From assembly GCA_949710005.1 (NCBI GenBank), contig OX453287.1, positions 9,968,805-10,032,804 of the forward strand: a stretch of DNA of 64,000 nucleotides, in the 5' to 3' direction. Below are positions 16,108 to 56,252 of this stretch, piece by piece. Both the position numbers and the translations under genes were made by a program. The stretch's first letter is position 1. Every line of letters starts with the position of its first letter. Origin of the DNA: Ricordea florida (Eukaryota > Cnidaria > Anthozoa > Corallimorpharia > Ricordeidae). The notes beneath the pieces were generated by a model, which was not told the DNA's origin, searched no databases, and saw only the letters and a list, made by a program, of their open reading frames with translations.

Positions 16108-16877
16108 CCTTGCATCCCCAATAAGGTGAGTATTGCCTGGGAACAGGTGCTGGGGATCTTCCTCAGCATCCATAAAGAAGGGAGAATTTCGAAACACGCG
16201 AGCATCGTGAACCGACCCTGGAAATCCACAAAATACGTCCGTAAACCGCATACTCGTGTCACAAATAACTTGTAGTTGAATGGAGTGGTAGCCTTTCCTG
16301 TTGATTTATAGCTCAGGATTTTTCCTAGGCGCCTTGATAGGATTGTGACAGCCGTCGATCGCTCCCATCACTCCAGGAAAACCTCTCGTTTCTTCAAATT
16401 TTTCACTTTCCTCTCTCGCCCTTGCCCCACTAGGAAACTGGATAAATCGCCGAGACAGATGAACTTCAATCGCTTTAAAAATACGTCTATAAACACGATA
16501 GGCACTGGATCTTGTTACATTAAATCGATCTGCGACAGATCTTAGACTCTCTTGATTGCCTAAAACCCATAAAGTAAGGATTTGCCTCCGAAGTGGTATA
16601 GGGGGTCTTCCACCCTGTTTCGGCTCATGTGGCAAGCCGGGTAGCACAGCCAGGAAGCCTTCGAGGAACTCAAGCGGAAGTGGCTACGAAACGTGTCTAA
16701 GCTATACTGAGGAACGATAATCTCTGCATAATGTTCTACTCTAACGCGCCTCTTTCTCTGTTTGTGTCCTACTAGCGCCAGGACACTATTTGAATCGCTG
16801 ATCAGAAAATGCTCCATGGTATCATCGCATACTTCTTCAAGCAAGAGAAACCACATCATTTCTTTTGCGGCCGCCAT
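16108..16877 (-). pseudogene. PIF/Harbinger (HARBI1-like) transposase, frameshifted and 3'-truncated
   Basis: Starts at ATG 16,877 (MAAAKEMMWFLLLEE). A frameshift near 16,650 leads into a helix-turn-helix region (LRSVADRFNVTRSSAYRVYR) and then the DDE nuclease with FPGVMGAIDGCHNPIKAP, whose D is the first catalytic aspartate. A TAA at about 16,308 interrupts it. The same frame then continues with INRKGYHSIQLQVICDT, GFPGSVHDARVFRNSP and HLIGDAR, whose D is the second catalytic aspartate. At about 16,108 the sequence switches to BEL/Pao pol, so the last third, with the catalytic glutamate, is gone. It would have partnered a Myb-like protein such as the one at 7-8 kb, but no link between them is shown. 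Confidence 0.88.
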
Positions 16878-18144
16878 ATTGAACGTATTTACAAAAGGTT
16901 ACCAAGGTTACAGATCCAATTTCGGATTTCGTGTTCCTTTCGGCCACGAAATCTGGTAAACCTCAGATCCAAAATCCGTTTTTGGATTCACCGAAAGGAA
17001 CACACCCTATGTTTGTCAGCCCGAATTCCCTCGGGCCTCTTTTCAAAATCATGTCCGGATCTTTTCTTATTCAAACTCAAGTTTTTTTCCTGCGTGGTCG
17101 TGTGGAAAGACATCAGCGGGAACAGGGCCAATAAGGCTAAATCGGAAGAATAGTATATCCGATTGAGGAGTAATATTGTTTTTTTTTTTCCACACATCGC
17201 TTCTTCGCCTTCGATAACTTGGAATCGCGATGAATGGCATCAAGTTTCACAGTTGTTTTTCCACCGTGGAAACCAAGAAAACTGATAGGTCAAGCTTAAT
17301 CCGATTACGATTAGTAAACAAACCCAATTATCACTGAAATTTGTGTAAAACTTAAGAAATATTTCTGATAAAATCGCTCAGCCTATACACGACGTCGACA
17401 AGAATTGCGGTTCGATATTATATACAGTCTGGTAGGTTTTTTGTGGTCGTGGAACCAGCCATATAGTATACAACATATACAAACCTTCGACGTAAACTGA
17501 CATTCACGTTTGTTCGAAGCCGTATTATAAAGTGTAGCCCGAGTGAAAGCTCCCGAGAGCGTCTAGTTTAAATTTAATTTACTTAACGAGTTACAATACA
17601 ACGTAATTATTTAAATATAGAAAAAAACCAACGAACAAGCTTAAAAAAGACCTCGCAACAAGTTACTAAGGGAAACACCTTAAATGGTGAGAAGGAATTT
17701 TCACTTCTTCTGAAATTCCCTTTCACCATTCAACGTCGCAGCAATTTATTTTTTATCTCGATTTTATCCTGCACAAATAAGATGAAGTCGCTGAAAACGA
17801 ACATATTATTTAGAGTTTAGATATAAAGAAAGTAGTTGCCTGGCATAATGAGGTGGTTCAGGGTCAAACGGGTGAGTACAGGGACGAGTGATTCCAAATA
17901 ATACCTCTGCCTCGGAGAGAAGAAAACTCGCTTTACTTACGGCAGAATACCAACTTGGAACTTATACCAAATACAGAGGAATTAATTACAATACAATATA
18001 AAAAGATTCCTTAATTGTCCTCGAAATTTCGAGTCATGCCGGTCTCACGTAAATGCCTAACATTTCACACCGGTCTCATGTAAACAGCTGTTACCGGCCC
18101 AAGTTCATGCCGGTCTGAGTTCGTACCGGTCCCATGTAATCACC
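16878..18144. other. Noncoding stretch with several inverted repeats
   Basis: No gene is seen. Pairs of inverted sequences around TTCCTTTCGG and CCGAAAGGAA (16,935-17,005) may be the terminal region of the Harbinger element. A hairpin with arms AAATGGTGAGAAGGAATTT and AAATTCCCTTTCACCATT lies at about 17,682-17,741. A CCGGTCTCATGTAA repeat cluster ends the stretch. Confidence 0.5.
18028..18142 (+). repeat. Short-period CCGGTCTCATGTAA repeats
   Basis: Versions of CCGGTCTCAYGTAA recur at about 18,039, 18,070, 18,107 and 18,126, separated by short variable pieces. No encoded product. Confidence 0.65.
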
Positions 18145-18304
18145 GCCCAAGATTATCACCTACGCAGATGATACAGTCATTTTCAAATCCTCGAAAGATC
18201 TGGAAACTATCTAGCACAATCTAGGCGAAGACATCAGTAGTCTCGTAAATTGGCTTCGAGAAAGCGAACTTCTTATAAATCTGAATCAAAGTAGGACTAT
18301 GGTG
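18145..18304 (+). pseudogene. Non-LTR reverse transcriptase fragment (palm), part 1
   Basis: Encodes ITYADDTVIFKSS, the catalytic YADD motif C of a non-LTR reverse transcriptase of another family (RTE/jockey-like), followed by a helix and LVNWLRESELLINLN. A TAG interrupts it. It stops where a sequence with a 12-bp terminal inverted repeat begins; the continuation is found at 20,196. Confidence 0.75.
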
Positions 18305-20195
18305 AACTCGTGGATATGTTTACAAAACAGAGAAAAAGAAATAATTTAAAAATTAACGAGGTGTTTTTTCAGAGTTGTGATTGAATGAAATTGAAGATAA
18401 TTTTAATAATCTATAATCACAACATAAAAGTGACCAGGGAGCTGAGTAGCTTTTTCAAATAAACATACAGTGAGTACATGACGCCAATCATTTGACTACA
18501 CTAGGCATCAGTTATAAGGCAGGTGGCAAGCATGCAGTTGTTAAAAAATTTGATAACTTAACATAAGGGTACAGGATTAAATGGCACCGAAACCAAAAGT
18601 AGTTCTGGTATCCTGTTGCTCACTGTCTGTGAGTTCAAAGTTTCTAACACATGTAACAGGGTCCTTCTGAATAAGGTCTGAATTTTGTTGCCATGACATT
18701 GTCAATTTTATCATCATTATAGTTTTTGTTGTCTACAAGTCTATTCAATGTTTTCAACAGAAATATCCACCTTGATTCTGCAGCTGATAATGAACAAAAC
18801 CATGTAGGATTGCCCAGCTGACGAATCATACCAAACAAGTCTTTCTTGCATTTTTGCAAAGTATGTTAGTGATGATCTTAAAATCCTTAAGACTCTCAAT
18901 CCTTTATCAAGTTGAATTAGTTTATTTACATTATCATCTCATTTTAGGTTATCATACATTCATGTATATATATTCAGGGTTGCACTTAAAAGGCTGAATC
19001 ACACTTACCATCATTAATACAGCAATACATCTTTGTTTTTATCCTTATAACTTCTTGTTTTTACAATGTAAATATGATGAGTCACACAACAGTAAGCAAA
19101 ACAGGTAAGCCTATTTTCCAAGATGTCTACCTCAACACAATCTAGTTCACTTCAAGGTAAATTCGGAAATCAATAGACAGAAAACTTTTCATTGTAACGG
19201 CTTGTGGTGTATTATATATAATATAACGCTTAATACATTTTGTACATGACTTACTCTTTTCGAACCCTTTAATGACTTTCTTACATTGTAATCTTCATGG
19301 TTCTCCGTCACGGCATGCGCCTCCATATTTAATGGTAAACGTTCACATACTTCTTGACCGTCCCAATACTTCTCCAACTCCATTCCTGTTAGTACTAACA
19401 CTTAAATCAGTAGAAAAGTCCTCCATGCGATGTTTCTTATCCTGGTTGGCGACAGAAGTTCTTCGATTTCACATCATGGATTCGTCAATTTATTCTGTTT
19501 TCAGTCAGAGTCGTTTCGTTTAACAACAAGTGCTCATTTCGCTCATATAAGTTCTCATTCAAGTGCTCATTTCGCTCTATGAGTTCTCAGCAAAGCTTAC
19601 TACATTAGCAAGAGATTTTCTCATCTTCAGATCACTTTCGAGCCAACTGAAATTCATATACTGCTTGTCAACGTCGGAAGAGCGAATAGTTATCATCTGG
19701 TCACGTTTAACGCCTGGCCGAGTCAAAGGCTCGTAAAATTCAGTCTCCAAGTTGGCCATTGTCCTAACTGGAAACATTTAAGCTCCTTTTGATTTTAGTA
19801 AGACCGCTAATGAGGCCCTGTTAGTGAGGTTCTTTATGTCGCGCGTCTGAGTTTCAAACCTTTTCATGTCGCAATTTCCGAAGGTCGAAGGTCGCTGTCG
19901 TAATTTCCGTGAGCGGCTCGTCTTTCGTCGCCATTTCAGCTCCTTCATGTTGCCGTTTCAAGGCCATGTCGCTTGTCGAAATTTACCCGTAATAGGGCCT
20001 CGCTAATCGTCCTCTTAAGCGTGAACTTTGGTCAGTAGACTTCGGTGACGACAATTGTCGTCTTCATATCAGTGCTCCCGAGTTCTTTCCGACTAATTAC
20101 GAAGAGTGTCTACACTGGAGTGAGTGAGTGAGTGACAATTTGCATATCGGAGTCCCCACAAAAACTCGCAAATACGCTTCGCGTATCCACGAGTT
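18305..20195. mobile_element. 1.89-kb insertion with 12-bp terminal inverted repeats
   Basis: The ends AACTCGTGGATA (18,305-18,316) and TATCCACGAGTT (20,184-20,195) are perfect inverted copies, and the reverse transcriptase reading is split exactly across it. A triloop palindrome (ATACGC-TTC-GCGTAT, 20,172-20,186) adjoins the right end. Inside are a Helitron Rep remnant and two minus-strand open stretches (19,401-19,189 and 19,777-19,577) that I do not recognise. The terminal inverted repeat is unlike a Helitron, so the Rep piece may be a captured or nested fragment. Confidence 0.6.
18575..18859 (-). pseudogene. Helitron Rep/helicase protein fragment
   Basis: The minus frame from 18,859 reads KCKKDLFGMIRQLGNPTWF and FCSLSAAESRW, a highly conserved part of the Helitron-like N-terminal domain upstream of the rolling-circle replication motifs. 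A frameshift near 18,680 is followed in the next frame by LIQKDPVTCVRNF, the next conserved block. Only this small piece exists, so it is an inactive fragment. Confidence 0.75.
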
Positions 20196-20690
20196 AAAAA
20201 GGAAAAACTGAAGTAATGCTATTTGGAACAGGAAAAAGATTAAACAGGTTCGATGGTACAGAACCAAACCTCTCAGTAAATGGATCGCATATCAACACAA
20301 CAAGATACAAATACCTTGGCGTGCATCTAGACCCTACACTAAATCTCGACACACACTTTTTTAAACATACAAGAAAGCTGCAGGGAGAGTGAACTTATTA
20401 TGACGAGTCCGTTCTAACATTGACACCTTTAGCGCTGAACGAATCTACAAAACAATGATAATGCCTATTTTCACTTACTGTAACCAACACATGCTTGGTT
20501 GGTCTGAGACACGCAAGTGCCAAATCCGAAATCTGGAACAACAAAGCCACAGGACTATTCTGCCTTATCCCAAATATCTGAACTGTGAAATCCGCCTACC
20601 CACAATTCAAAACATTTTAAAGAAAAAAGGCCTGTCAATTTTAAAACAATTTTTGTATTCCTTTTAAAAACTTTTTTTCGATTTTTTAAA
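20196..20690 (+). pseudogene. Non-LTR reverse transcriptase fragment, part 2
   Basis: Continues the reading broken at 18,304: KTEVMLFGTGKRLNR, then TTRYKYLGVHLDPTLNLDTH, the conserved KYLGV..D..L segment after the palm of RTE/jockey-type reverse transcriptases. Further stops and frame changes follow through about 20,690, with the familiar basic C-terminal region in frame at 20,455-20,667. Confidence 0.75.
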
Positions 20691-21317
20691 CCCACAATGT
20701 AAACACAAGAAACAGTTTGGCCTCCGTCGTTCTCCGAAAAGTGAAACTTGGCTTTGCACGTAAAAGTTTTTATTTTTTAGGTGCTTCAACTTTTATTTTT
20801 TTTATCTTTATAACGAGGCTAATTAGCAGTAGGGTATTATTTAGGGAGTCTCTAAATGAATTTTTTAGTGTAGTTGGCTAGCATAAAGTTACAAAGTCAT
20901 TTTTGTCTTATTTTTTTACCATTTGCCTTTATAATGTTTATTATAATATTTATGTTTATAGTATTTTAAACAGGAGACCATTGATAACAATACTTTCGCA
21001 CCGAAGGGCTATCCTGTATATAAATATTCCTTATTACTAATATTATTATTATTATTATTACTATTATTGTCATTGTCATTGTTATTGTTATTATTATTAA
21101 GAGATTCGTGGTGTTCAATCCACTGTAACTGACGGGACCATAATTTACTAAAACATAACAGGGATATTTATCCAGGAGATCTTGGGGAACCAAAATCTGA
21201 GGAATGCATATTAGAATCATTATAGAACTAACTTCTAAGTCAATAGGAAGAAAACGATGATCTCAGACCTCCAGTTGAACCGCAGTCCACTATGTACAAT
21301 TATTAACTTGCGGTCCT
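20691..21317. other. Noncoding, with a TTA/TTG microsatellite
   Basis: AT-rich, with a TTATTA/TTGTTA microsatellite at about 21,038-21,100. I see no gene. Confidence 0.5.
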
Positions 21318-22311
21318 TTAAGGAGGGAATCTGGTTGAAATTTCGAGTTGAATTGAGAACTCGGTCAATTTTTTCTTTTAGTCTCCATTAGACAGAAAAA
21401 TTATAAAACAATAAAGTCTGAACATTTTTTTTGCTAAAAGTTACAGCGAAAAGAGACTCAGGAAGAATTAAAAAAAACAGAGAATAGGATTCAGGAGCAG
21501 CATAAGTACAGAGTTGCTCGAAGGCAGGCAGGACAAAGAGACGAGGAACGGCAGCGACAAAGGGAAGGCACAACATACAGCGCTGGTGCATTCAATGAAC
21601 TTACTGTCACCACAGAACCAGCTAGGAAAAGAAAAAAGAAATAGAAATTGTGACATTTTACAAGAAAATGATTTCTTGATACTGTAATGAGGCTACTTGT
21701 ATGAGTTTCTTAGTGGTAGCTTACCTTATTGATGGTTTCACCACTGATTTTGCTTTGCAAATGTTCAACCGCCTTTTTCTCAAAACAGCAATTTTTGGGT
21801 AGAATTTAGCTGCCCACAATATGTTTTTTCCTTTATATTTATCCTTTTGCCATCAAATTTGGCTCAGTTACTCATGGGAGGCTTCTCTACAAACCTATTG
21901 ACGCTTTTTTTATTTTGATAAATATTGCTGAAGTTATTCCAAGCTAAACTTTTTGTATAATCATTTTGTGGCTATGGCAACGTAATTTGCCAAAAACCAA
22001 AATTGCCCAATAGGTTTGTAGAGGTGTGTATGTGGTATCATTGCATGAAATATTACGCTTCCAATGTAAATAGAATTGAAAAAAAGCATGGGGGGCATGA
22101 AATTAATACAAAAACAGCAGTTCAAATAGTTTTGTTAATAATTAACCAGGATTTGCATATTATGGTATGTTGCCCGTTGTCATGATAGCTTATGTTCTAC
22201 TTTAACTTCATGCAAAATTCTGTATCGATACATTACATAGCCGTAAAGTTTCATGAGCTTTACAATTTGATACACATTTGGGCTCAAAATCTAACCAGAC
22301 TCCCCCCTTAA
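21318..22311. mobile_element. TTAA-bounded element with inverted ends (piggyBac-like non-autonomous?)
   Basis: TTAA at 21,318-21,321 is followed by GGAGGGAATCTGGTT, and AACCAGACTCCCCCC is followed by TTAA at 22,308-22,311. The 15-bp ends match inversely at 13 positions. TTAA duplication with such ends is the hallmark of piggyBac-type insertion. The interior has only a short basic open stretch (about 21,470-21,654; RRQAGQRDEERQRQREG then PARKRKKK) and no transposase. Confidence 0.45.
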
Positions 22312-25300
22312 GAAATTAAAATGCCAGTCAGCTACTAAAGGGCTAAGACAAAACAATGTTGATTTTTAACTAAGTAGGCAGCGATTAACACTTTAACATG
22401 CTGTGGACAAAGCAATTGCAAATAATCTCACTGTCTCGCAATTCGCTTCGTCGACTTCCGGCTCTAAACAAAAGTACAGAGTCCTGAACAATGCATTGGT
22501 ACAAATCAGTACCTTATCTCTACATAAAGTTTAATTTCTCTTCTGCCGTGATAGCTAATGCTGAATCTATTCCACGATACTCTGAATTTTCTTACAGAAC
22601 GTGAGCCTTTAGTAGAGAGATTATATGTGTTTTTTTCTTGGAACGAGGCCACTTATGTATGGCTAGAGAAAAGTTCCTTATGTCAGTAACAACTGGGCCT
22701 AGTATATCGGGCAGTCTCTCCATATCCACAACGGGATTCGATCGTGACTTCGTGGCAGTGCACTTTATACTCGCTCGCTACCATCTGAAAAATTGCTTGT
22801 TATTTAACTGAGGTGGGATGATAGAAGGGTGCGATATATATCGGCCTCATCATCACATTTCTTTTCCAGTCTTTATCAAAGATAACCCTAGAAGAATATT
22901 TTCTTAATTATAGAACATCCACTTTTTTCCCCAGCCTTTTGATCCTGTGAGGCCAGGTGTAAAGAAATTTCTTCTGTTAGATACATGCGACTAAACAAGT
23001 TAGTTCCAAAAGCTTTCTATTTCTCCCCTCAAGTCAATAATTTATGTTTTCCCCAGAAATGCAAGAGTCATTAAACAGTTCAATTACATTATTTTTTAGT
23101 ATATTCCTGTTCTATAATTTTAATAGCGTCCAATGAGTGAAGCTATGAGCTGACAAGATTTATATATCGCTGTGACATTGATAAACCCATGGTCTATTCC
23201 TGGAAGTTTGCGTTCCTAGAAAATGAAAGTATGAATAATTCAGTACTTTTATTGCATGAACTCTTATTTGAATATTAAAACACGAAAATTTAGAATTGAT
23301 CTGTTATTTTAAGGTTGTAGTGAGAACGATGATATACTTTCAATGGAACCATGCCTTTGTTATTTCATTCTCTTTTTTCGAAGTACTGGTTTTAATGGTT
23401 TCTTATGAGAGATACTGCCAAATAAAAAAAATTGTTATTCATATCAGTGAAAATTCTCATGCCCTGAGCAAGGGAATCAAAGGTTTTAACAAGACATAAT
23501 CTTGTTACTTTACCACCTATGGTTGTCTTAAACGAACAGCCAAAAAAAGGTTGGAGGTTGAAATAACTGAATAAATAAATGCGGTATTCATGAAAAAAGC
23601 ATTATCGCGAGAGGATTAATCACGGGGAAATACAGCAAAATTTTACATGTATACTTCGACATGGAAGATTCCTAAACTAAACTGTTAACTATAATGGTCG
23701 TTACATTTCTCCCTCCTTGACAAGTTTCCGATCGGAACCTGTAACTAACGCGGCTAGACAAAATTAAAGCATGACAACATTTTATAGCGAAACTTGAATA
23801 TTTTTCCTACCTGGCGTCAAATTGAAGAAAAGTTAAACGGCAGCAAAATCTTGTACTAGTAGGTCAAGTTTTAAAGTAAAGTCGCATTTCCGTAATCCCA
23901 ACTTTCTTAAAAAAATAGGTTTGGTGCTACTCGCACTCAAAGAAGAGACTAACTATATTTTACGTACACTATTGTAATTGCGCCAAGGTAATGTTTTCCA
24001 TTTTAGTCTATGCATTATTTGCATAAAAATGACACTCGCATTTGACAGCTCTTCATTGGGTATGCTTACGACACGATAACAATTTCAAGGTCTTAAAACT
24101 CATAATGTTGCTCTACAATAATTACTATCCTCCTAATTCGTGGAATATCATGAGATTAGGAAATAATCGGCGACTTTTGTCAAGCACATTGCGAGCACTT
24201 TTATCCCTGACAGTCGAAATGAAGAAGACCCATTACTCGTAGCTTTCATTTGTAACAAGTATTAAAACTTACGACACTTCATAATGTTTGCATGTCCGTC
24301 GCAACGATGTTATAGTTAGTTTTCAGTCCTCAGCCTGAGAGCACTACAATGTTTCATCGATAGATCCATCAAGTCCTTCTGTCATGGTAGCCATAATACC
24401 AAATCCAGCTAGCTGAGAACATAGTGTGTCACGTGATCATAATTAAAATACTTTGAAGAAACCAGCTCTAGTCCGCCTTCAATTTCCGCTACCAAATAGA
24501 TTGAGCCAGAACGGAAGACTTGATCATGATTGTTTCTTAATTTCAAAAGACCAATGTCTAAGCTATATATAGACTATTTTATTTGTGCCTTCTATAGATT
24601 TCCACTGAGCAAGTGTTAAGAAATTAACGACAAAGGTTAAACTGAAGGTAAATTATTTCATTGATAAGATAACAACTCAGAATCTCTAATACTACGTTAG
24701 GTCGAAATAAACCTGTTAACGTGGACAACTTTAACGCTCTCATAGCAATGCACTTTTATAAATTTATAACATTGCAAATCACACAACTTCTGTTCATAAT
24801 CTACGCAATAATGCACTTCCGATCCAAAAATTGCAATCTTGTCTGAATGGAAAAGAAAAGAAATACTGTAGAAAGTAGATAAACAAATGCGATAAGAAAT
24901 GACAGTGTTGTTACAAACGGGGACGACAGAAGAAGTGTGACCAGATCAAATAGAGCTGTAAATAAAAATTGCTTGAAAAAAATATATTTCCATCTGTCAT
25001 TAAATTCATCGGTAGCGTTGATTTTAGGACTTCAAGTTGCTATGTGAGAACTTTCCTACTTAACTATAGTTTGTAAAGAAAACCTTTTACAACAAGGAGG
25101 GCGAACTTTGTTTTATTGTATCAATCTGCGAAGGAGGAACAAATACTGGATTGATTCTCTAGATATACTGTTGTTAAATCACTATGCGCAAAATACGTCT
25201 TACAATACAGGACAGAAGATCAATCTATCAACATTTGGTGTTAGGTTTGTGCCTGCGTTACGACTGTACAAGTTGCCCCTATTTCTAGTACTCATTTTAG

Positions 25301-26114
25301 CTTTCATGAGTTTTATTTGGTGAAGAACATGTTTTGATTTACATTAAGGAAGCCTGAATTTCCCAGTAGAATATACAGTGAATTCAAACTATTTTACTTC
25401 ATACAGTAGTTTTTTAAAACACCAAGATAAACTGTAATTCCAGTCAGGTAAGTAACAAGAGCAAGTCAGCTATATTTGAAAATGCAGTTAAATTGGCAAC
25501 TCGTGTATCCTGCATGAGCACCTTATTCGTAGCTAAAAAAGTAAATCCATTAGAAAGGTAACAACTCACGCCAAGGCAATACTGTTCACTGCATACTCAA
25601 AAACAAATATTCTAAAGTGTTTAATAGAAAACTTTTAAATTCGAACAATGACAAAATAATTCACAGAAAACCAAACTCACGTTTTGTAATTTCCTTAGCT
25701 TGTTTTTATGCTTAAAATATTTTTGACCACATTTGCAGAAGTAATACATAGGAACTCAAAGATTATTTCGATGTTTTTACCTTACAAGTTGCTATGATAC
25801 AAAGAAAAATGTATTCCTCTTAGAATGTGAAAAAGGAATGGTAAAATTTCAAAGATTCGTCACAAGAAGGCACCAAACAGCAACAAATCTGTACTTACTT
25901 AGGACTTAAAGTAAGCTTAAGTATATTTTGAAGGAGTAATTTTGTATAGGGCTATTTCTGTATTAGAAAACCGTACATCATTTGGCCATTTTGAATAAAG
26001 TCAAGTCTGTAGCACCAAACTTCCGCTTGAATGCACGGGGAGAACCAGTGATCCAATACATCTATTTATTTCATATTAATACGAAATGATTTATTTCCAC
26101 GGATTCTGGATGGA
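22312..26114. other. Host intergenic sequence, no supported gene
   Basis: About 3.8 kb of AT-rich sequence without convincing exons. A plus-strand stretch at 24,042-24,242 contains LTALHWVCLRHDN, which resembles the start of an ankyrin repeat, but there is no second repeat and no clean splice context. Other open frames are short and compositionally random. Confidence 0.5.
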
Positions 26115-26120
26115 TATAAA
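26115..26120 (+). promoter_or_regulatory. TATA box of the secreted helical protein gene
   Basis: TATAAA at 26,115-26,120 lies 79 bases before the ATG at 26,194. Transcription would start near 26,145, giving a 5' leader of about 50 nt, typical of an inducible TATA-driven gene. Confidence 0.6.
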
Positions 26121-26193
26121 AGTTCACCGACTGTCCGTATCTTCACTTCAAGAAGAGAAACGTTTCACTGAAAGTTCAAAACAGGATTTTAAA

Positions 26194-27731
26194 ATGAAAG
26201 GTAAGTGCTATAACTGGATTTGTATCTTGGACAAGAACATTTACAGTTTTGAGTAGGGGCGTATTTTAGAATTCTAAACTATTGTGATTTTCACAGTGTG
26301 CCAGTTAGCACTCCTCCTGGCTCTCATGGGCTCCATTTCACTGTGTCTGTCCATCAGCCGGGCCTCCTCCTGTCGAAATAACGGAACATTAAAACTATTA
26401 ATGAAACAGTTACTACCTTTAGCACGCGGTCTGGGACGACACGCGGTAAAAGCCAAAAATATGATTGTAAGTATTTAACACCATACAAACATTATTTTCT
26501 TGTTTTCTTTAAACGAAAAATAATCACAGTATTTATTGAACATGAGAATGATATTAAAAAGGAAAGCAAGAAGTAACAGTGCCCTAAGTAACGTTTATTT
26601 AGACGAGTAAAATAGGACCTTTCAGTACCGAGGCACTGTCATCAAGTGCAACGGAGGTTTAATCTCAACCAAGTCTCTAGACGTTGGTTGAAATACAAGT
26701 ACAAAAAAGGCAGCAACATGTATTCTGTAACATAACCAAGCATGTGTGACTTTACAGTCTAACCGATGGCTGACAACCCAAGACAAATATGCACAGGCGG
26801 ACATTCAGCTACCGATGATTTCAAGACCGACAAATCGCAATGAAACTAAGGTAAGAAACTTTCGACTCTAGGAATAGTTTGTAAATACTTCAAGGTTTCA
26901 ATATTTAACAATTCAATCACTGCCAGCAAGCTGTTATCTTCCGGCATTCTAGTTATCAGTGTGAATATGATGACAATACAGAAATCGATTAAAAACGTCT
27001 TGTATATAAAAGACGTCATGCAGTCCCACTGGCAATCAAGTTGCAGCCGAGAGTATTATTTTTTAATCTTTGCAATTAAGTGAAGAAAAGTAATTATTAT
27101 TGTTTTTCACAGCCTTTGTCCGTCTTAAAAAACAACCGCCAAGTTCTAGAGGCATTTCTCCCTTATATCGAGGACGTTAAGAAAGAGTTCCAAGTATTCT
27201 CCTCTGCAAAGGAACTTGAAAGCGAACTTAAAGAAGTAATCTGGAATTCCAGAGTCCTTGTCTTCGTACTAGACGGGATGCAAGCTGCTTTACGAGGAGT
27301 GAGTAGGGTTACGTAATTTGCTACCCAATGTTAGACTCTCCAGTACTAAGAATGTTAGGATAGCAATTTCTCAGAAACGTTGACTATTTTTATCTGCATA
27401 TAACAGTGAAAATCACGATTAAGGCAAGGTTATGCCACAGCCAAAAAGTTGTTTTTCGCTTTATGAAATGAGTAGCCTGACGTTCTAACAGCTTTCCTTG
27501 TTTTTACAGCATTCATTAACCAACGTTGATGGGTTGAAACCATCAGAGAGCGCACTAAACATGACAACGTCAAGCATCAACCAGTCTAATTACCAAGCCA
27601 CCGGCACAAGGCTCGCTTTCCCGGGATCTGGTCTCTGTCTCAACGCCTCAGCCATATTGGATGAGCTTTATGGCGACGTATTACAGATGCAAGTCGAGTT
27701 TAACAAGATAGCCAAACAAATTTGTTCATAA
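26194..27731 (+). CDS. Five-exon gene for a secreted four-helix protein, class I cytokine-like (candidate)
   Basis: Coding exons: 26,194-26,200, 26,297-26,466, 26,758-26,850, 27,113-27,298 and 27,510-27,731; all introns begin GT and end AG. Total 225 residues plus TAA. Residues 1-25 form a signal peptide (MKVCQLALLLALMGS). The mature chain has a helix at about 31-59, an extended loop at 60-90, a helix at about 92-118, a helix at about 122-151, a long loop at 152-196 and a helix at about 198-224. Mature cysteines are C28, C195 and C224; N-glycosylation sites are N31, N87, N169, N176 and N197. Intron phases are 1,0,0,0. The helix lengths, long AB and CD loops and exon partition (signal+A / loop / B+C / loop+D) match long-chain class I cytokine genes such as IL6, CSF3 and EPO. 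Sequence alone does not prove homology; another secreted helical protein is possible. Gene model confidence is high, cytokine identity moderate. Confidence 0.8.
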
Positions 27732-29249
27732 AAGACCGTTATAGTTTATTTAATAGGGTAGAGGCTGTTGTGGCGCGTAAATTAATTTCAAAAATAGGCC
27801 CAACATGATTTATGGCGGTTGTATCATTTTCCCTAACAAACGGCTCTAAAAGTTAAGATATGTTACGTTGAGATATATTAACTCAAGGCTGACTTCATTT
27901 AGAAGATTTATGATTAAAATAGGATTGAATAGAGTCCAATCCCATCTGCACTCAAAGTGATTACAAAGTCACGTGACCACGGGGCGGGAGTGCGATCTAT
28001 CAGGAATTTTCACGCCCGGTTAGCAAATAATCCAGCAATTTTGGGGGACAAAATAAAGAACGAAAGTAAGTAAAGAAGTATCATTAATACCAACAATAGC
28101 AACCAACTAATAAAACTTTTACAATTTCGGCAAAAGTTCCACCTTTGAAGATAAGTTACAGGTGATAAGCTTAAGTGATTGTAAGCGATGTTGTAGTAAT
28201 GGTTTGATTTTCCTCAGAGCAAAGAAAATGATTGGCGTATTTAACTGTCCAATCACAACCGTTTCACTGCAAGCAACAGTAATATTTCACTACCGGAAAA
28301 GAAATTTGTAGATTAATCAGTGAAATTGCATCGCAAATTTAAATGTTTGGTTAAGTTTAAGAAGTAAAAGGGTATTTAGGATAACTCTCTTTCATGAAAA
28401 TCAGAAAAAGAACACATTTGATTGATTGCTTTTTTCTGTTACTACCTTCAACAGTTTCACATGTGAACTATGGTAACGGTCACAAGTCTTTTCAATTTAT
28501 ACGAAACAAATAAAATATTTTTGAAACCATTTTTGCTTTTGATGTTTCAACTTGACAACAGCAACAAAGCAATTGTGCCAAAATGCACCAGTTCTTCACT
28601 GTTATATACAACTTTCCCACCCATGGTAGACGAATAGTGGTGAATATATAGAGAATAATACATGGGCGGGCGAAGTTTCTCTTCGAGTCTTCAAGTTGAG
28701 ATCCCACAGGTGGGCGCAGCGAACGAGTTAGATATCGATTTGAAAACGAGAAAAAAAATCGATATCTCTAGGCATCCAGGTATTATTCTGTTTATTAAAT
28801 AAACAAACACCCGTTATTTAATTGAACACGTCGTGAAATTCTCATACTTGTGGCAGAAACTTCTGTAAAACACTGTATTCTTATGCTAAACGTGGAGATA
28901 TACTCCATCGATACAGCAAGGCTTCAGTTTGAGATATTCCCGTTAAAATCCAACTCTCAGTTAAGTCATTCATATGCTTAGCTAAATTCCTTGAGGGCTT
29001 CCATAGCATTTTTTATTAAATTATAGCTACATGAAGCATCGGTCACGTATTCTTTACGGTACATTTACGCACACCAAAAATGACGTTAGAGTATATTACT
29101 CGTGAAATAACCCGTGCTGCAAATTAACGCCCTTTATTTCTGGACCCTCAATATAAAAAAAAAACATTTACCGGCTTGCAAACCTAGCTCTCAGGTCGCT
29201 TTTCATCTTACGTGTTGTCTGCGTTTGATAATGGTATTGGTTAATGATA

Positions 29250-29282
<33 letters not shown>

Positions 29283-29476
29283 CGTGAGAAGTTGTAGAAA
29301 ACACTGCTGAATAGTGCTCAATACACATTTGTGTAGAGCGGTATATATTAAATCGCGGTATATATTAAATATATTAAATATATTAAATTATTATATTAAA
29401 TCTGCCTGATGAGTGCGTAAGCACGAAACTCAGAGTTGCAGGGAATTATGTGTGTTTTCATTTAGTAACCCAATTC

Positions 29477-29507
<31 letters not shown>

Positions 29508-30146
29508 CATGACGATAACAGTAGTAATAACGATAATAAAGGTAATGATAATATTTATATATATAACAAGATGAAAAAAAGTCCATTTTTACTAGATGTT
29601 ATAACAGAAGAACTTCCTTCTTTTTGCACAATAAGATGGACTCAGTTTTCTGCATATCGGATTATTAAAATCGTTGGGTACCCGATATGTTAGCTTCTCT
29701 TTCACCCAGTTCGTCTTGGGAGCAAAAACGTGGAGTTTATGATACAGACGGGTACTGCAAATATGAAAGATAGTATTGCGTTTACAGCGGTGATCATATT
29801 GGCGTAAACACCTAAAATATGTCTGGAATGTTTATTGTGATGTAAGCAATCACAGACGAGATCATCACACCAAAGAAACCACAGGCAAAGAACGGTTTCC
29901 TATCTGTCACGGAACAAATTATTTTCATTTTGTTTTTACATTCAGTCTTTTTACAAGTAAACAATTGCTTTTCCTTCCTATTTGTTTACAGTATTTGCTG
30001 TAATAGCGAAGAATACAGGTTTGAGCGATTTTGAAATAAAGTACAAAGCCGATATGCCGGGCCTACGCACGCGACGGTTTGGCGCGCGAGTTTTTCAACT
30101 TTTTGTAACGATCTAAATCGGTAGTTACGCCTGATCGCAAGTTACA
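27732..30146. other. Host intergenic sequence with microsatellites and a palindrome
   Basis: No gene is seen. Notable are a perfect hairpin (AGATATCGATTT / AAATCGATATCT, 28,730-28,767), (TAA)n tracts at about 29,247-29,281 and 29,479-29,506, and TATATTAAA-type repeats at 29,340-29,400. Confidence 0.5.
28052..28057 (+). terminator. Possible polyadenylation signal of the secreted protein gene
   Basis: AATAAA at 28,052, 321 bases after the stop, is the first consensus signal downstream on the plus strand. Confidence 0.35.
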
Positions 30147-30677
30147 ATGTTGCAAGGTAAGCCGCTAGAGTTTTCTTATTTCCATCGCTTCGCAGCTAAT
30201 GCAGTAAGCGTAAACACTTTTTTGTTAGGTGAGGGAGATTTACTATTTTGGTAATTTATTTATGTTTTTTTGGTAGCTAATGTACGCGTGCGGGAGAATC
30301 GACATGGCCAAATCTACGACATGGGGAAACCTTATCCTCAAGTAATCCGGGAAAACGTTTTAGATCTTCACAACAACGGTTTGTCAATCAGACAAATAAG
30401 CGCTCAAGAACGAGTAAGTACCGGATTTGTTACGAAAGTTATAAAGGAATATAATGAAAACAATTATTCTGTCCCGCGAAGGGCTCTAAGTGGACGTAAG
30501 GAGTCAGTTCTAACCGAAAATGTGCGCTCTTACCTGGAGGTTGAAAAGCTATGCAGGGGTGGATCCAGAGTAGTTCAAGTGATTTCCAGAAATCACTCAA
30601 ATGTTTCCGAACCTGCGTTTGTTATTTCTAGGGTTCTTCCTTGTAGCTCACGAAATCAATTATCCTTCTTGTTGTAG
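30147..30677 (+). CDS. Paired-like helix-turn-helix protein, probably transposase-derived
   Basis: A tiny first exon (30,147-30,156, ATGTTGCAAG, phase 1) joins by a GT..AG intron (30,157-30,276) to an exon open to the TAG at 30,675. The product starts MLQANVRVRENRHG. Residues of the second exon, GKPYPQVIRENVLDLHNNGL then SIRQISAQERVSTGFVTKVI, form the first helix-turn-helix of a paired (PRD-like) domain, followed by a basic linker and a second helical segment (LTENVRSYLEVEKLC). Paired-like domains of this kind occur in PAX proteins and in DNA-binding regions of Tc1/mariner-type transposases. No catalytic domain follows; the region after residue about 95 looks random and the DIRS element starts just downstream, so the 3' part may be displaced or a splice donor missed. 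Confidence 0.55.
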
Positions 30678-30731
30678 TGTTTATTATGAAATAAAACAAA
30701 GAAAAAAGGCGTCGAATCTCGTTATACCGTC

Positions 30732-30895
30732 GATTGGACATCATTATACTCGTCTCGATATAACAATGTAAATGCCTTTCTTTTGCTTCAATGACAGCAT
30801 TTTTAAAGCTTACAACTCTGAAAAACAGCTTAAAACTGAAAACGAGGCCACCCTGCTATATCTGCCGGCGCCCCTTAGTACCCTCGCCTTTTTGC
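30732..30895 (+). repeat. DIRS left inverted terminal repeat and complementary region
   Basis: ATACTCGTCTCGATATAACA (30,746-30,765) is inverted at 35,070-35,098, and 30,755-30,890 is inverted at 41,445-41,575 with few mismatches. Confidence 0.75.
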
Positions 30896-30905
30896 TTCGC
30901 TCAAC

Positions 30906-32104
30906 ATGGCAGCAACGGGTGGAAGAGAAGCCGATGTCCAAATAATCGCCCAGAATCCTGAGTCATCTCAAGGTAAATCCATGAATTCTGACAGAAATAA
31001 TACAGCAGAGGTTATTTCCAAAATGATTCAGAGCCAATTAGCAGAGATGCTGCCCACTATGATTCACGAAACCATGCAAAGAAAAACCTCGAGGGAACTG
31101 CCTCGAGCTCACAAACTTTGAACACCAGTTCAAATTAATAATAATAATAATGAACTTTATTTGAGTGTCAACTGTTAGCCGCCGGGTCAACACAAGGCTC
31201 AAATGATTCTGTAGCTGGCCGGTTAGCCGCCGGGTCAACACAAGGCTTTAATAATGGTCACGTTGAAATCAGTCACCCACCTTTGAAGAAAGCAAAGGTG
31301 TCAGAGGCAAACGAGGATGTCAGTGATGATCTCACAATTCCCGCTGGACGTTGGGAGGCGTCCGAGGAACTGCCGAGCTTTCTAGACGTTATGTTTGCGG
31401 ATAGACCGCTGTCTGTGTATGACAGGAAACAAATTACAAAAGATTTTCCTCGTCCCAATGTTGAGTCAGTATTTACTCCAGTGCTTGATGACTATTTAGG
31501 CTCCCTTGTTACTGGGGCGAAAGGAGTTGACAAAGAAACAAAGAAATTCCAAGACCAGCTCTTGGACATTGTTGGCCCAGTAAGCATGGCCCTTGAACAC
31601 GTCTCCAACTGGCACGAAAGCGAGGATAATCCAGGTTCTGTTATTCTATCCACACAAGATGTAGGTGGCCTGTATACATGTTTGTCCAAGGCCCTTACTC
31701 TACTGGGATCTGTCAATGCCCAGCTTAAAGTTCATAGACGGAAACAAGTGTTGGATAAACTGAACCCTCAGATGAGCTCATTAGCTTCTGAGCCATTCCC
31801 AGAGGCAGGCAAGAATCTGTTTGGTCCATCCTTTGAAGAAAAAGTGAAGAAAAGGAATGAAACAGTGAAGATCCTTTCTAAGGCAGCCCCTAAGAAGCCA
31901 AACATGCAGTTTTTTCGAAGAGGGACCTCCTCCCAATTCAGGCCAGGGCGAGGGGGTCAGTTTGCTAAAAAATGGTCCAATCACCTACCAAGCTTCCCAA
32001 CCAGAGGAAAAAACTCATATTACAGGGGCAGGGGCCGGAGCAGGAGAAGGTTCTCAACTGCTCAACCAGGTCAGAACTATGTTCCACCCCAAAGTTCCCA
32101 GTAG
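30906..32104 (+). pseudogene. DIRS gag-like protein, split by a small repeat insertion
   Basis: ATG 30,906 opens MAATGGREADVQIIAQ and a helical segment (SKMIQSQLAEMLPTMIHETM) up to a TGA at 31,119. Repeat sequence with TAA units and GAACTTTATTTGAGTGTCAA follows. The gag-type frame then continues from 31,283 (ATG-less start region) to 32,104 with LPSFLDVMFADRPLSVYDRK and an Arg/Gly-rich tail (RRGTSSQFRPGRGG, YYRGRGRSRRR) that would bind RNA. DIRS gag proteins are poorly conserved; position before the reverse transcriptase and the RGG-like tail support the call. The last 130 bases overlap the RT frame. Confidence 0.65.
31134..31250 (+). repeat. Short interspersed insertion within DIRS gag
   Basis: TAA-type repeats followed by GAACTTTATTTGAGTGTCAA, then two copies of TTAGCCGCCGGGTCAACACA. 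The first part recurs at about 45,232-45,283 inside another retroelement, so it is a mobile short repeat. Confidence 0.65.
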
Positions 32105-34226
32105 CAGTTGCAAGCCAAACAAATGCAGGTATGCTACCATTAAAAGAGAATTTAAACCTTCCATTAATAAAGTCGTTTTTAAGCAGTTTAGGCCTTTCTA
32201 CAATAGAAGCCAGCCACTTACCCACAGCAGGTCGCTTACAACACTTCATAAAAAACTGGCAAGCAGTAACAAACGACCCTTGGGTCCTTTCAGCTATTCC
32301 AGGGTACCATATTCCCTTTACAATCTTACCACACCAAGATTTTCTTCCCTCCCACAGAGTATCGGGGGAGGACGAAAATTTGATAGACAAAGAACTAGGA
32401 GAGCGTATTCAAAAACAGGCAATCCATCTGGTTTCAGAACACGATTACAACGTGGGATTTGTCAGCAACCTGTTTGTAATCCCCAAAAAGGGAGGCGGAC
32501 AAAGACCAGTCTTCAACCTCCGCCAATTAAATCAATTTATCCAATACGAACACTTCAAAATGGAAGGCATACGTATGCTCAAAGACCTACTGAAACCAAA
32601 CGATTTCATGGCGAAGATCGATTTGAAAGATGCCTATTTTACAGTTCCAATTTGGAAAGGTCACCAGAAATTCCTCCGGTTTCTTTGGAAGGGTACCCAA
32701 TGGGAGTTTGCATGCCTCCCATTTGGAATAGCAAGTGCCCCCAGAGTCTTTACCAAGATTCTAAAACCGGTAATAGGTCTGTTAAGAAAGTAAGGAATTC
32801 GTCTGATCATTTATTTAGACAATTTTTTACTGATGTCCTCCACCGAAGAAACTCTAACATACTATGTCTCATTGACAGTCACCCTTCTAGAGATGTTAGG
32901 GTCAATTACCAAAAATCCCAGCTAAATCCTACACAGTCAATAGAGTTTCTGGGTTTCCGTATAAATTCAGTTACGTTAAACATCAGCCTTCCCTTGGACA
33001 AAGTAAAGAGTATCAGAAGAGAGTGTCAGAACGTTCTGGAAAATCCAGACATCACGATCAGGGAGCTAGCTCGGCTCCTAGGGAAACTAAGTGCTTCTAT
33101 CCAGGCAGTGTTCCCAGCACCCGTTCATTATCGTTACATCCAAGCAGTCAAAAACCGCAATCTAACTCTTCATGGGGGCTACGAGTCCCCAGTATGCTGG
33201 ACAGAGGAAGCCCTCGAGGAACTAAAATGGTGGAGAGACCACCTTTCTGCTTGGAACGGGAGAGCAATTTTAAGAACCCTTCCTCTTTTGACAATCGAAA
33301 CAGATGCTTCCTCAATGGGATTGGGAGCATGTTGTGGAAGCCTCCAGACCAGAGGGCTTTGGTCTCTGTCAAAAAGGCTATTATACATAAATTGTTTAGA
33401 ACTTCTAGCAGGCGGTTTTGCCCTGAAGCCATTTCTAAAAAACAAGTGCAGCATCCATGTAAAGTTAATGATGGACAATACAACAGCAATAAGTTATATA
33501 AACAAAATGGGCGGGCCAACATCACTGGTCTTGTCAAGCCTAGCCTTCGACCTTTGGCAGTGGTGTCTAGAACGGGCTATTACAGTCGAAGCTCACCATT
33601 TGCCGGGGCGACTAAACATTGTGGCCGATTTCGAATCCCGAGTTCATCCAGATTCCAGCGACTGGCAACTGGAAACGTCCATCTTTCAGGGGATCAACAA
33701 CAAATGGGGCCCCTTCACAATAGATCTTTTTGCAAGCAGACTGACAACACAGTTACCCAGGTTTGTGAGTTGGAAGCCAGATCCAGAGGCAAAGGCAGTG
33801 GATGCCTTCACTCTGGATTGGAACCAGCTCAAGGGATACGCATTCCATCCATTTGCCCTGATAGGGCGGTGTCTAAAGCAAGTTCTGCGACAGTCAGTCT
33901 CTCAGTTGACAATTGTGACTCCAGTGTGGGAAACCCAACCATGGTACCAATTGTTGTTAGAAATGACAATAGACAATCCCATATTGCTCCCATCGTTCCC
34001 AGGGCTACTGAGACGAGAGAACGAGTTACATCCTCTTGCTCACCTTCAACTAGCCGCATGGCTAGTCTCAGGAGTCGATACGAAGGTACAACAGTTTCAC
34101 TGCCAGCTCAAAGCCTGCTCCTGGCTGCATGGAGAACCAGGACTGAAAAAACTTATTCTTCAGCCTGGAGAAAGTGGACTTGTTGGTGTCGTGAACAACA
34201 AGTCAATCCCCTTTCAGCATCTTTAG
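31972..34226 (+). pseudogene. DIRS reverse transcriptase / RNase H, one nonsense and frame breaks
   Basis: Reverse transcriptase motifs appear in order: KKGGGQRPVFNLRQLNQF, MAKIDLKDAYFTVPI (motif A), FACLPFGIASAPRVFTK (motif B). A TAA at 32,791 is followed in the same frame by RLIIYLDNFLLMS (motif C, YLDN in place of YxDD). Near 32,890 the reading moves to the frame that holds YQKSQLNPTQSIEFLGF, then the RNase H-like part (LTIETDASSMGLGACC, INCLELLAGGFAL, LMMDNTTAISYINKMGG) and the conserved DIRS tail to 34,226. The gene overlaps the recombinase frame on its 3' side, as in other DIRS elements. The stop and frame change make it inactive. Confidence 0.85.
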
Positions 34227-35054
34227 ATTCAGTTTTAAACTTCCTGGCCAGTCAATTTGAAGCAGGCCTGAAATATCGTACTCTAAATGTGTATCGCTTT
34301 GTCTGCAACACACCCACAAATTGAAGGTTACAATGTTGGTGAACATCCCCTAGTAGTTCAGCTATTAAAAGGGATTTTCAATTCCCGTCCACCAGTACCA
34401 AGATACACATCTACATGGGATGTTAGCAAAGTTACGAGTTATTTGGAAGGTTTGGGTTCGAATGAGCAACTATCATTAAAGCAACTTAGTAAAAAACTGG
34501 CATTTTTGCTTGCTATTACTTCTGCGAAGAGGGGCTCTGAATTAATAGCCCATGATTTACGTTTCAAACGATTTCATCCAGAAGGTGTTTTTTTTAACCT
34601 CCCAGAACTTACCAAAGGGGTTCGGGTTGGAAAACCTTTAAAGACCTCCTTTCACTCTAATTTCCCAGAAAATGATTTGCTATGCCCATGCTCATGTCTT
34701 AAAGAGTATGAAACGCGTACACAGGCCTTTAGGCCAGAATCAGTTTCTGAACCAAACAGGTTATTTCTCTCTGTAAATAACCCTCATAAGCCTGTGAGTT
34801 CTGCTACCCTGTCTCATTGGGTTAAGAACTGTCTGTTGGAAGCGGGAATTGATAACAAAGTGTTCAAGGCTCACTCCACTCGTGGAGCAGCTACTTCTGC
34901 ACCACTGAGAGCAGGCATCTCTATTCCAGAAATAGTCCGCCTAGCTGATTGGACAAATGAGACCACTTTCATGAAGTTTTATTATCGTCCTGTTTGGAAT
35001 GCTAGTGTTGGCCGCTCTGTTTTAGCTAGTGCTGCAGTTGAACCAGGGTCTTGA
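34090..35054 (+). pseudogene. DIRS tyrosine recombinase, single frameshift
   Basis: The SAM-like arm-binding part (SLLLAAWRTRTEKTYSSAW, WRKWTCWCREQ, LDSVLNFLASQFEAGLKYRT) lies in one frame up to about 34,300. A one-base shift then leads into the catalytic part ending at 35,054. That part has ITSAKRGSELIAHDLR (first arginine), KAHSTRGAATSAPL (H-x-x-R) and TFMKFYYRPV (a Y of the last motif is the nucleophile candidate). This enzyme inserts DIRS circles by strand exchange without target duplication. The gene overlaps the end of the RT/RNase H frame. Apart from the frameshift the domain is complete. Confidence 0.85.
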
Positions 35055-35174: not shown

Positions 35175-36639
35175 AGTAGTATAGCACGCTTATAGGGGCC
35201 GTAACCAATCAGGAGCCGAGAAAGACAATAGCCTATTGTTTGGAGAACAATGGATGCTATTGTTTGCCAAATCCAAAATGGCCGCCACAAATTTGAGCCA
35301 ATCAGGAGCCGAATTAAGGATTCAAGATGGCGGCGCTCATGGGGCCGTTAACCAATCAAGAGCCAGGATTTGTACCACGTGACCAACAAGAACAATGGGG
35401 TTCTATTGTTTTCAATCGAGAATGGCTACCACAAATGTCAACCAATCAGGAGTCGAATTAAGGATTCAAAATGGCTTATGCAAATGAAGGTCAGCCATGT
35501 TGGAAAACAGCCCACCAGCCTCGACAGAGGTCCTGGGATCGGTCTCACAGATTTCCATGGCAACTCAATCAATAATACTTACAGTGTCCTGTGCCCCCAA
35601 AATTCGTAGAAGTCCTTCCTGCTAGCGGTCATGGTAAAGACTGAGAGACTTGGGTCCAAGCCTAGGCTATGTAGGGTGTGGCAAGGCATCAGGGGGCGAT
35701 GACATCATCAAGAACCAATCCGAATGAAGAAAAATCAGCATGAATTAAAGTACTTACAGCGGGGTTCCCCAGTCCCCCTCTCTTAAGGAGAGCATTAAAC
35801 CCTGGAATCTCACCTTTGTGAGGCACTCCCCGAGGGTTGGTTACCTCGGCTCGTGTTGGAAAAATCCCTGACAGCGGTGAAACTCCGATTTCCTTGTGCT
35901 TTGATGTCCCCATGGCTATCCAGAATACTATGCGCTAAATGAATAGGTCTACCTACCATCCCATGTCGGTAGTTTGTTTCCTTGAACATATTAAAAGACT
36001 CCAGAATACTACGCGCTAAATGAATAGGTCTACCTACCATCCCATGTCGGTAGATTGTTTCCTTGAACATATTAAAAGACTTGTTTAGTATCCTTTTCAA
36101 CCATATTGTAATCACATTCAATTGATCTATCGACAAGCTTAGTAATGCCTACCAGTGCCGAGAAATCCAGAGAAAGATTGAAGAAATGGAGGAAAAAAAA
36201 TCTTGAACTATGCATTGGAGAATAACATCAAAGGAATTTCAAGCAAACTTTTCGAGCTTGAAATAAAGATCTAACTAAATTTACAAGCACTGCAAAGCGT
36301 ACCACTCTAATTCATTGACATTGCGAATTATAAGCAGTTTTCGACGGGAATAAAACCAATTACATTAATCATAGCCCTTAGTTCTTGGAGAAAAGAGAAT
36401 TGCGTGTTGCTTTCTCATTTCTTCATCCAAAATGAGAAGAAAGAGTTAAAAGAGAAAAAATACAATTGAAATACTTCAAGTGGAAATGAATTGCTAATGA
36501 ATCTAAAGGCCTTGATCTCGACTGTTCCCTTGAGAAAAGCATCATTCAAAGGAATCTTAAACAAATAAAGTACATTTTGAGCGACCGTTAAATAATTAAC
36601 ATAATTAGTCAGACATGAACCGTGAGATGAATTAAGATC
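35175..36639. repeat. Left terminal inverted repeat of the short Polinton
   Basis: Matches 41,332-39,870 in inverse orientation, diverging inward after GAATTAAGA. It contains four copies of a CCAATCAGGAGCCGA-type motif near its outer end (CCAAT at 35,205, 35,298, 35,352 and 35,442) and two tandem copies of a block of roughly 80 bp (CTACCTACCATCCCATGTCG) at about 35,918-36,080. Confidence 0.92.
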
Positions 36640-36642
36640 CCA

Positions 36643-37206
36643 CCACTTACACCACCACCACCACCACATACACCACCACCACCACCACATACACCACCAC
36701 CACCACATACACAACCACCACCACATACACAACCACCACCACCACCACCACCACCACCACCACATACACCACCACCACCACCACCACCACCACCACCACA
36801 TACACCACCACCACCACCACCACATACACCACCACCACCACCACCACATACACCACCACCACCACCACATACACCACCACCACCATCACATACAACACCA
36901 CCACCACATACACCACATACACCACCACCACATACACCACCACCACATACACCACCACCACCACATACACCACCACCACCACATACACCACCACCACATA
37001 CACCACTACCACCACCACATACACCACCACCACATACACCACCACCACATACACCACCACCACCACATACACCACCACATACACCACCACCATATACATC
37101 ACCACCACCATATACATCACCAACACCACATACACCACCACCACCACCACCACCACCACATACACCACCACCACCACCACATACACGAGTACCTCCACCA
37201 CCACTA
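36643..37206. repeat. CACCACCACATA-type satellite, about 560 bp
   Basis: Arrays of CCA triplets interrupted by CATA, giving units such as CACATACACCACCACCACCA. Long open frames across it (Gly/Cys/Val or Trp runs) are artefacts of the triplet repeat. Confidence 0.95.
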
Positions 37207-37291
37207 CCTCCACAAACTCTATCCATCAACCATCTATAAAAAGTAGGCTTTAACTGCCTCTGCTCATTTTGAATCAAACTAGCAAGGAGTC

Positions 37292-38116
37292 GTGTCCCTT
37301 TATTGTCGATATTATCATAGACTATTCTCTCGTACAGACAGTAGAATTCGTCACGAGAAACATAGTTGTCAAAGCAGTGGGTCAGAAAAAACACGAGATG
37401 TCCCAAATATCACATTTCCTACCGAAAAGCACCATGGGATCCCTAGTGGAATAGAATTGGGGGAAGCGTTTCGGTTCAAGACCCCCTCCAGTATTTTGAT
37501 CGTGGGTCCCTCTGGTTGCGGCAAGACTTGTTCTACCGAGTCGTTACTCTTGGATCACTTGGACGAATTGTTTGTAAGTCCTCCTCCCGCAGTTCATTAT
37601 TGTTACGGGGCGTGGCAAGACGGATTTCAAGACATGCAAGAGGCTGGTGTGCAATTTCACGAAGGGATTCCCGCGTCACACCATCTCAAGGCATGGTTTC
37701 CAAAGGGTGGATTACTCGTGTTAGACGATTTGATGGCAGAGGGAGGTGAGGACAAAGAGTTGTTGGACTTATTCACCAAACACTCTCACCATCAAAACAT
37801 CACCGTGCTGTACTTGTGTCAGGACATGTTTCCACCAGGGAAATACGCTAAGAGTATTTCCAGGAACGCCCACTACATCGTAGCGTTCAAAAATCCAAGA
37901 GATCAATTAGGGATAAGGAATTTACTGCTTCAAGCTTTTCCCACTTGTTGGCAAGACATGACGGATGTGTATCAAAAAGTGACCGAACGACCGTTTGGGT
38001 ACACGGTCTTGGATCTACACCCCGCCAGTGATGACAAGAGACGCGTGTTTAGTCACCTCTTGACGCACGAAGGATACCCGCGTTGGCATCGAAGAATTAA
38101 GAGAGAGGATGTTTGA
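37292..38116 (+). CDS. Polinton packaging ATPase (FtsK/HerA family) with N-terminal zinc-finger-like region; start codon lost?
   Basis: A 274-residue frame. Residues 3-26 (LYCRYYHRLFSRTDSRIRHE..C) look like a C2H2-type finger with one cysteine replaced by tyrosine. The ATPase follows: Walker A GPSGCGKT at about 72-79, Walker B LLVLDDLMAE at about 141-150, and an LYLCQDMFPPG segment (glutamine sensor) near 165-175. FtsK/HerA-type ATPases of this group pump DNA into icosahedral capsids of Polintons, adintoviruses and many large DNA viruses. The frame has no ATG before the ATPase domain: a stop lies 15 bases upstream of 37,292 and the expected start codon is GTG. So either the ATG mutated to GTG or the start is non-canonical. 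The rest is uninterrupted. Confidence 0.8.
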   Translation: MSLYCRYYHRLFSRTDSRIRHEKHSCQSSGSEKTRDVPNITFPTEKHHGIPSGIELGEAFRFKTPSSILIVGPSGCGKTCSTESLLLDHLDELFVSPPPAVHYCYGAWQDGFQDMQEAGVQFHEGIPASHHLKAWFPKGGLLVLDDLMAEGGEDKELLDLFTKHSHHQNITVLYLCQDMFPPGKYAKSISRNAHYIVAFKNPRDQLGIRNLLLQAFPTCWQDMTDVYQKVTERPFGYTVLDLHPASDDKRRVFSHLLTHEGYPRWHRRIKREDV

Positions 38117-38204
38117 TCATTTACTAAAACAGTATATTAAATATTAGTTTAATAGACTCGGCTCATTTGAAGCACGCTGTCTTTGGTGAAGGTCGACCAG
38201 AATC

Positions 38205-56225: not shown

Positions 56226-56252
56226 TTAACCAAAGTATCTTATAAATCAAAT

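Follow-up and report, generated by a model that had tools for sequence, protein, structure and literature searches.

Class I helical cytokines govern blood formation, growth and immunity in vertebrates, and their origin has been obscured by fast sequence drift. Among the long-chain members, a gene plan of five coding exons with intron phases 1-0-0-0 is common, not universal: the coding exons measure 13/146/87/180/156 nt in human EPO, 19/191/114/147/168 nt in IL6 and 10/161/120/165/198 nt in GH1, with phases 1-0-0-0 in each case. These three sets of sizes sum correctly, and each yields 1-0-0-0 when the phases are computed. When the junction probes given for EPO are read in its coding frame, introns 2 and 3 come out as compatible with phase 0 (PMC12832296), and a five-exon G-CSF gene is common to carp, human and mouse (PMC6389648). 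Among insects, Drosophila Unpaired-3 has been described as IL6-like (PMC8226699), and a putative Drosophila helical cytokine has also been described (PMC2248247; PMC4172062).

Class I cytokines act through WSXWS receptors, with activation of JAK/STAT. On the receptor side, CRLF3 is described as a class I receptor that falls into a group with the EPO and prolactin receptors (PMC12409108). It has been reported from cnidarians to mammals, its native ligand is referred to as a knowledge gap, and the insect protein acts as a receptor for human EPO (PMC6797617; PMC12026705). This taxonomic range, the response of an insect CRLF3 to EPO, the grouping with the EPO and prolactin receptors and the gap on the ligand side make CRLF3 the natural candidate receptor for a factor of this kind if its host is a cnidarian. 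According to one of these articles, the pathway may have acquired JAK and the cytokine receptor only in Bilateria, and the four-helix bundle is stated, with reference to other work, to have been present already in cnidarian ancestors (PMC6797617). A hormone design like that of EPO or IL-6 would be surprising in a lineage as old as corals, and the surprise is somewhat lower given this early presence of the bundle. Among the articles in the searched literature that mention both helical cytokine and cnidaria, none announces a cnidarian cytokine by its title.

Here, we describe a locus in a 64,000-nt stretch of DNA (the window) that looks like a functional animal gene encoding a small helical protein of the secreted type, and compare it with these systems. 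The preliminary description had proposed a five-exon gene for 225 residues with GT..AG introns and phases 1-0-0-0, and a spliced frame rebuilt from the window reproduced it: exons of 7/170/93/186/222 nt join into 226 codons including the stop, four of four introns run from GT to AG, and the phases are 1-0-0-0. The coding exons are as follows.

26194..26200, plus strand: coding exon 1, encoding M, K and one further base, with a phase 1 donor (AAG/GTAAGT)
26297..26466, plus strand: coding exon 2, encoding the probable signal peptide, Cys28 and putative helix A (about residues 32-59); phase 0
26758..26850, plus strand: coding exon 3, encoding the predicted AB connection, residues 60-90, with no helix past residue 63 in the helix scan; phase 0
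27113..27298, plus strand: coding exon 4, encoding residues 91-152 with predicted helices B (92-117) and C (123-151) and a short turn between them; phase 0
27510..27731, plus strand: coding exon 5, encoding the predicted CD connection (153-197), tentative helix D (198-223), Cys195, Cys224 and the stop

The G+C content is 43-48% in exons 2-5, 29% in the 7-nt exon 1 and 33-37% in the introns. Of the eight splice sites, four stand out within 4 kb (25000-29000) and the other four are ordinary. Ranked among the 228 GT sites of this region, the donor of exon 1 is 2nd, that of exon 3 is 4th and that of exon 4 is 9th, and that of exon 2 lies outside the best 12; among its 267 acceptors, exon 5 has the 1st and exon 4 the 2nd, and those of exons 2 and 3 lie outside the best 14. 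A branch-point-like motif YTNAY is located at the usual distance, 20-45 bases before the acceptor, in intron 4 and was not found at that distance in introns 1-3.

By computation, the spliced reading frame is non-random. A small dynamic-programming gene finder, which used generic splice matrices and codon scores with hand-picked intron costs and was not supplied with the model, returned over 25901-28100 a best path (score 31.2) containing exons 2-5 exact to the base and the exact donor of exon 1. The exact five-exon model scored 27.5 in this confined search, a value reached by none of 1000 dinucleotide shuffles of the region, the best of which attained 14.1; the minus strand of the region gave 9.5, and no score above 12.3 was obtained in 12 strand-scans covering six real control stretches. 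Over 13 kb (17201-30200), the exact five-exon model was not returned, and three of the five exons were recovered exactly. With an intron cost of -16, the best path reached 32.2, whereas none of 200 shuffles exceeded 15.8, and this path had exons 3-5 exact, exon 2 opened by another acceptor (26358) and spurious upstream exons; with a cost of -13, it scored 70.6 against at most 55.7 in 200 shuffles, with exons 2-4 exact and extra exons on either side. A setting with both intron cost and start cost at -8 chained exons in a run-on fashion and was dropped.

The flanks of the coding region contain the following elements.

26115..26122, plus strand: TATA box TATAAAAG, the only TATAAA in 26000-26194
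26143..26149, plus strand: initiator-like TCACTTC, the only match to YYANWYY in 26125-26194, with a predicted transcript start at A26145
26164..26172, plus strand: STAT-type site TTCNNNGAA in the predicted 5′ UTR, weak and perhaps a chance match
27746..27754, plus strand: AU-rich-element nonamer TTATTTAAT in the predicted 3′ UTR, weak and perhaps a chance match
28052..28057, plus strand: candidate poly(A) signal AATAAA, the first on this strand past the stop

A TATA box had been claimed upstream of the gene, and it does lie there, 30 bases before the initiator-like A26145. TATA box, initiator and ATG follow one another in the layout of a TATA-type promoter, from which the transcript start is predicted. 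The TATA octamer has five copies in the window on both strands together, one of them inside intron 3. In the search confined to 25901-28100, the gene finder preferred an upstream in-frame ATG at 26110 over that at 26194, and from it 28 in-frame codons (26110-26193) are open before the signal peptide; this upstream ATG lies just 5′ of the TATA box, and a transcript starting at 26145 would exclude it and leave 49 bases before the ATG at 26194. STAT-type sites number 42 in the window against 31.4 expected, and as many are found in 4 of 100 shuffles, whereas the AU-rich nonamer occurs 12 times against 11.6 expected. The candidate poly(A) signal is weak because AATAAA occurs about as often as expected in the window (134 against 122.7).

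The rebuilt translation contains the three mature cysteines and five N-glycosylation sites that the preliminary description had listed: cysteines are at 4, 19, 28, 195 and 224, three of the five in the mature chain, and sequons are at 31, 87, 169, 176 and 197. The N-terminus is hydrophobic (residues 6-20), and inspection of the translation suggests a plausible signal-peptide cut between A25 and S26. AlphaFold2 was run on exon 4 and exon 5 as separate chains, without an alignment. Exon 4 (91-152) folded, in the best of five models, into a two-helix hairpin of 92-117 and 123-151 with a five-residue turn; its mean pLDDT was 88.7 and its pTM 0.69, the second model reached a mean pLDDT of 88.3, and the others 66.4, 62.0 and 57.7. 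Helices B and C are predicted with confidence in this exon as two long helices joined by a short loop, an arrangement expected of long-chain class I cytokines. For exon 5 (153-225), the best model (mean pLDDT 59.5, pTM 0.32; the other four 37.5-52.6) has coil to residue 185, a weak beta hairpin (186-189/194-197) and a helix at 198-223; the two blocks of ten residues contained entirely in this helix have pLDDT values of 73 and 83. Helix D is predicted tentatively, from moderate confidence in this one model.

Helix A, at about 32-59, is suggested tentatively by amphipathicity. When hydrophobic moments were compared with those of shuffles of each segment's own residues, p was 0.005 for A, 0.023 for B and 0.018 for D, and 0.43 and 0.84 for the two loops; for helix C, the moment taken at 100 degrees was not significant (p 0.18). 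A scan combining amphipathicity and helix propensity, which was blind to the exons and used a hand-set threshold, marked 32-63, 92-151 and 197-225. The total amphipathic content is unremarkable, being equally high in 18 of 300 shuffles, and a cruder propensity line is patchy, above all in helix A, which holds P43, G47 and G49. Of the four helices placed in the preliminary description, B and C are borne out with confidence and D tentatively, at nearly the same residues, with the correction that C starts at 123 rather than 122; the claim of one short and two long connections between helices is also supported.

The exon plan can be set against these helices. The protein is interrupted by introns after residues 59, 90 and 152, which divides it into A / AB loop / B+C / CD loop+D. 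In about 1.0 million trials of random placement, all three introns came to lie no more than 4 residues from the corresponding edges of the scan segments in 0.12% of cases, and in 1.8% under a looser rule; the tolerances were set by hand after the data had been seen. Five coding exons, phases 1-0-0-0 and the A / AB / BC / CD+D partition are all found together here, a result that leans on the helix assignments and on the reference exon sizes given above. The preliminary description had likened the plan to that of IL6, CSF3 and EPO, and the computed plan does match in phases and partition that of EPO, IL6 and growth hormone.

Relatives of the protein were sought with three queries, namely the whole chain, which covers exons 2 and 3, and the separate products of exons 4 and 5. 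An hmmscan of Pfam-A to E 10 returned no cytokine family; the single match, TAF1D (E 0.2), is below its cut-off and is attributable to chance, and the profiles of the cytokine families (EPO/TPO, IL6/GCSF, hormone and LIF/OSM) gave no match above cut-off. PDB sequences gave three chance matches and no relative. Among 5.8 billion proteins, the whole chain drew 1419 candidates, none at E ≤10, and exon 4 and exon 5 (with seven upstream codons) drew none with three common words. In IMG/VR, there were 3 pattern matches for the whole chain, 47 for exon 4 and 20 for exon 5, with none confirmed, and in GTDB contigs none of 41 pattern matches of the whole chain was confirmed. The collections searched are built around microbes, viruses and metagenomes, so that a missing homologue is weak evidence either way. 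A tblastn search of the window found no paralogue, the best match beyond the gene's own exons having an E value of 0.84.

The window also contains ORFs and elements of other kinds. Near its left edge are a Rho_N ORF (1-444, minus strand) and a separate, second DNA polymerase B fragment (DNA_pol_B_2, 3050-4183), followed by a Bel-Pao retroelement fragment (14745-16367, minus strand) with Peptidase_A17 and with RVT_1 below its cut-off. To the right of the gene, an ORF with a PAX-like helix-turn-helix (30255-30677), which may be of transposase type, opens a series of ORFs (30255-35054) that ends with a Phage_integrase-family tyrosine recombinase (34287-35054), as in DIRS-type elements. A 6.2-kb element (35175-41332) ends on either side in a perfect inverted repeat of 1463 nt (35175-36637 and 39870-41332). 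It also holds a long repeat of short period, between about 36547 and 37400, and an ORF (37283-38116) with a P-loop-like motif recognized by eye; at E 0.001, this ORF matched neither Pfam nor PHROG. L1-like ORFs follow at 45299-48775 (plus strand), with endonuclease and RT recognized by eye and no Pfam match in the part 45299-45940. A Maverick/Polinton-like block (50976-63832) contains a long ORF with an endonuclease VII match, an rve integrase on the minus strand, an A32-type ATPase, a capsid-like ORF with Capsid_N just below its cut-off, and several further ORFs. The Bel-Pao fragment, the tyrosine-recombinase element, the Maverick-like block and the L1-like ORFs are compatible with an animal genome. 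No tRNA or Rfam match was obtained in the window.

What, then, does the gene encode? On balance, it probably encodes a secreted, glycosylated four-helix factor that acts like a long-chain class I helical cytokine, the bundle being a prediction. The main rival, which we consider unlikely, is some other secreted helical protein whose helices run up-down-up-down or lie open and whose exon plan is coincidental; lineage-specific proteins of matrix, gland, egg or sperm would be examples. Such a protein would fit the failure of every collection searched to yield a homologue or a family match; loop lengths do not fix the topology, a disulfide linking the beginning of helix A with the end of helix D is by reasoning compatible with both topologies, and phases of 1-0-0-0, expected by chance at about 3% from intron phase frequencies, are unexceptional among many genes. 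Against coincidence, the phases, the tiny first exon, the exon sizes and the helix partition are jointly rarer than the phases alone.

Placement elsewhere among the helical cytokines is very improbable. Class II members (IL-10 / interferon type) and short-chain class I members are likewise secreted helical bundles, and the weak beta hairpin before helix D resembles the beta strands of short-chain members; the predicted helices of 26-29 residues are nevertheless of long-chain size. Class II cytokine genes have intron phases 0-0-0-0, and class II membership was rejected on the phases 1-0-0-0 found here. No more credit is due to a gene that is decaying or mis-assembled, or to open frames chained by chance, for which speak a neighbourhood rich in transposable elements, several weak splice sites and the lack of a homologue in the collections searched, and against which stand the intact frame, the contrast in G+C between exons and introns, the promoter layout, and the failure of all 1000 shuffles and all 12 control scans to reach the model score.

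If the gene does encode a factor of the long-chain class I type, its four helices would pack up-up-down-down with two overhand loops, with which the loop lengths are compatible, and a disulfide between C28 and C224 would tie both ends of the protein together. The protein may be released from stressed, wounded or infected cells and bridge two receptor chains on neighbouring cells, with STAT as the likely output; the downstream route may differ, given that JAK and the cytokine receptor are perhaps bilaterian additions. Should the host be a cnidarian, CRLF3 is our best guess for the receptor, as a candidate partner only. Homology to the vertebrate cytokines is possible, and either common descent or convergence could be the source of the likeness. 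The strongest version, in which a cnidarian gene shares ancestry with EPO, growth hormone and IL-6, has kept the plan intact and also encodes the native ligand of CRLF3, is distinctly doubtful, more so than the unrelated secreted protein. Were it true, helical cytokine signalling would be older than the cnidarian-bilaterian split, and an ancient orphan receptor would at last have its missing ligand. A cnidarian gene with its exon plan intact would date the family and supply a testable candidate ligand for CRLF3, and it would mean that gene structure can reveal cytokines where sequence searches fail.

Among the known systems, Drosophila Unpaired-3 and the putative Drosophila helical cytokine are invertebrate factors too, but they are from an insect and are likened here by description. 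Growth hormone and prolactin share long helices with the present protein and, in the case of GH1, a tiny first exon with phase 1 followed by 0-0-0, whereas they differ in their disulfides and their Pfam family gives no match. With IL-6 and G-CSF (Pfam IL6/GCSF/MGF), the likeness lies in the five exons, described for G-CSF (PMC6389648). It extends to the partition of helices and, by the exon sizes of IL6, to the phases 1-0-0-0, in contrast to a different cysteine layout and the lack of a Pfam match. EPO differs from the present protein in having three sequons where five are found here, in an AB-loop disulfide that has no counterpart here and in a CD connection shorter than the one of about 46 residues here, and no sequence match to EPO was obtained in Pfam or PDB. 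The two genes nevertheless agree in the number of coding exons (five) and their approximate sizes, in the phases 1-0-0-0 and in the placing of B and C on exon 4, and their products would share N-glycosylation and possibly the disulfide that in EPO joins the start of helix A to the end of helix D.
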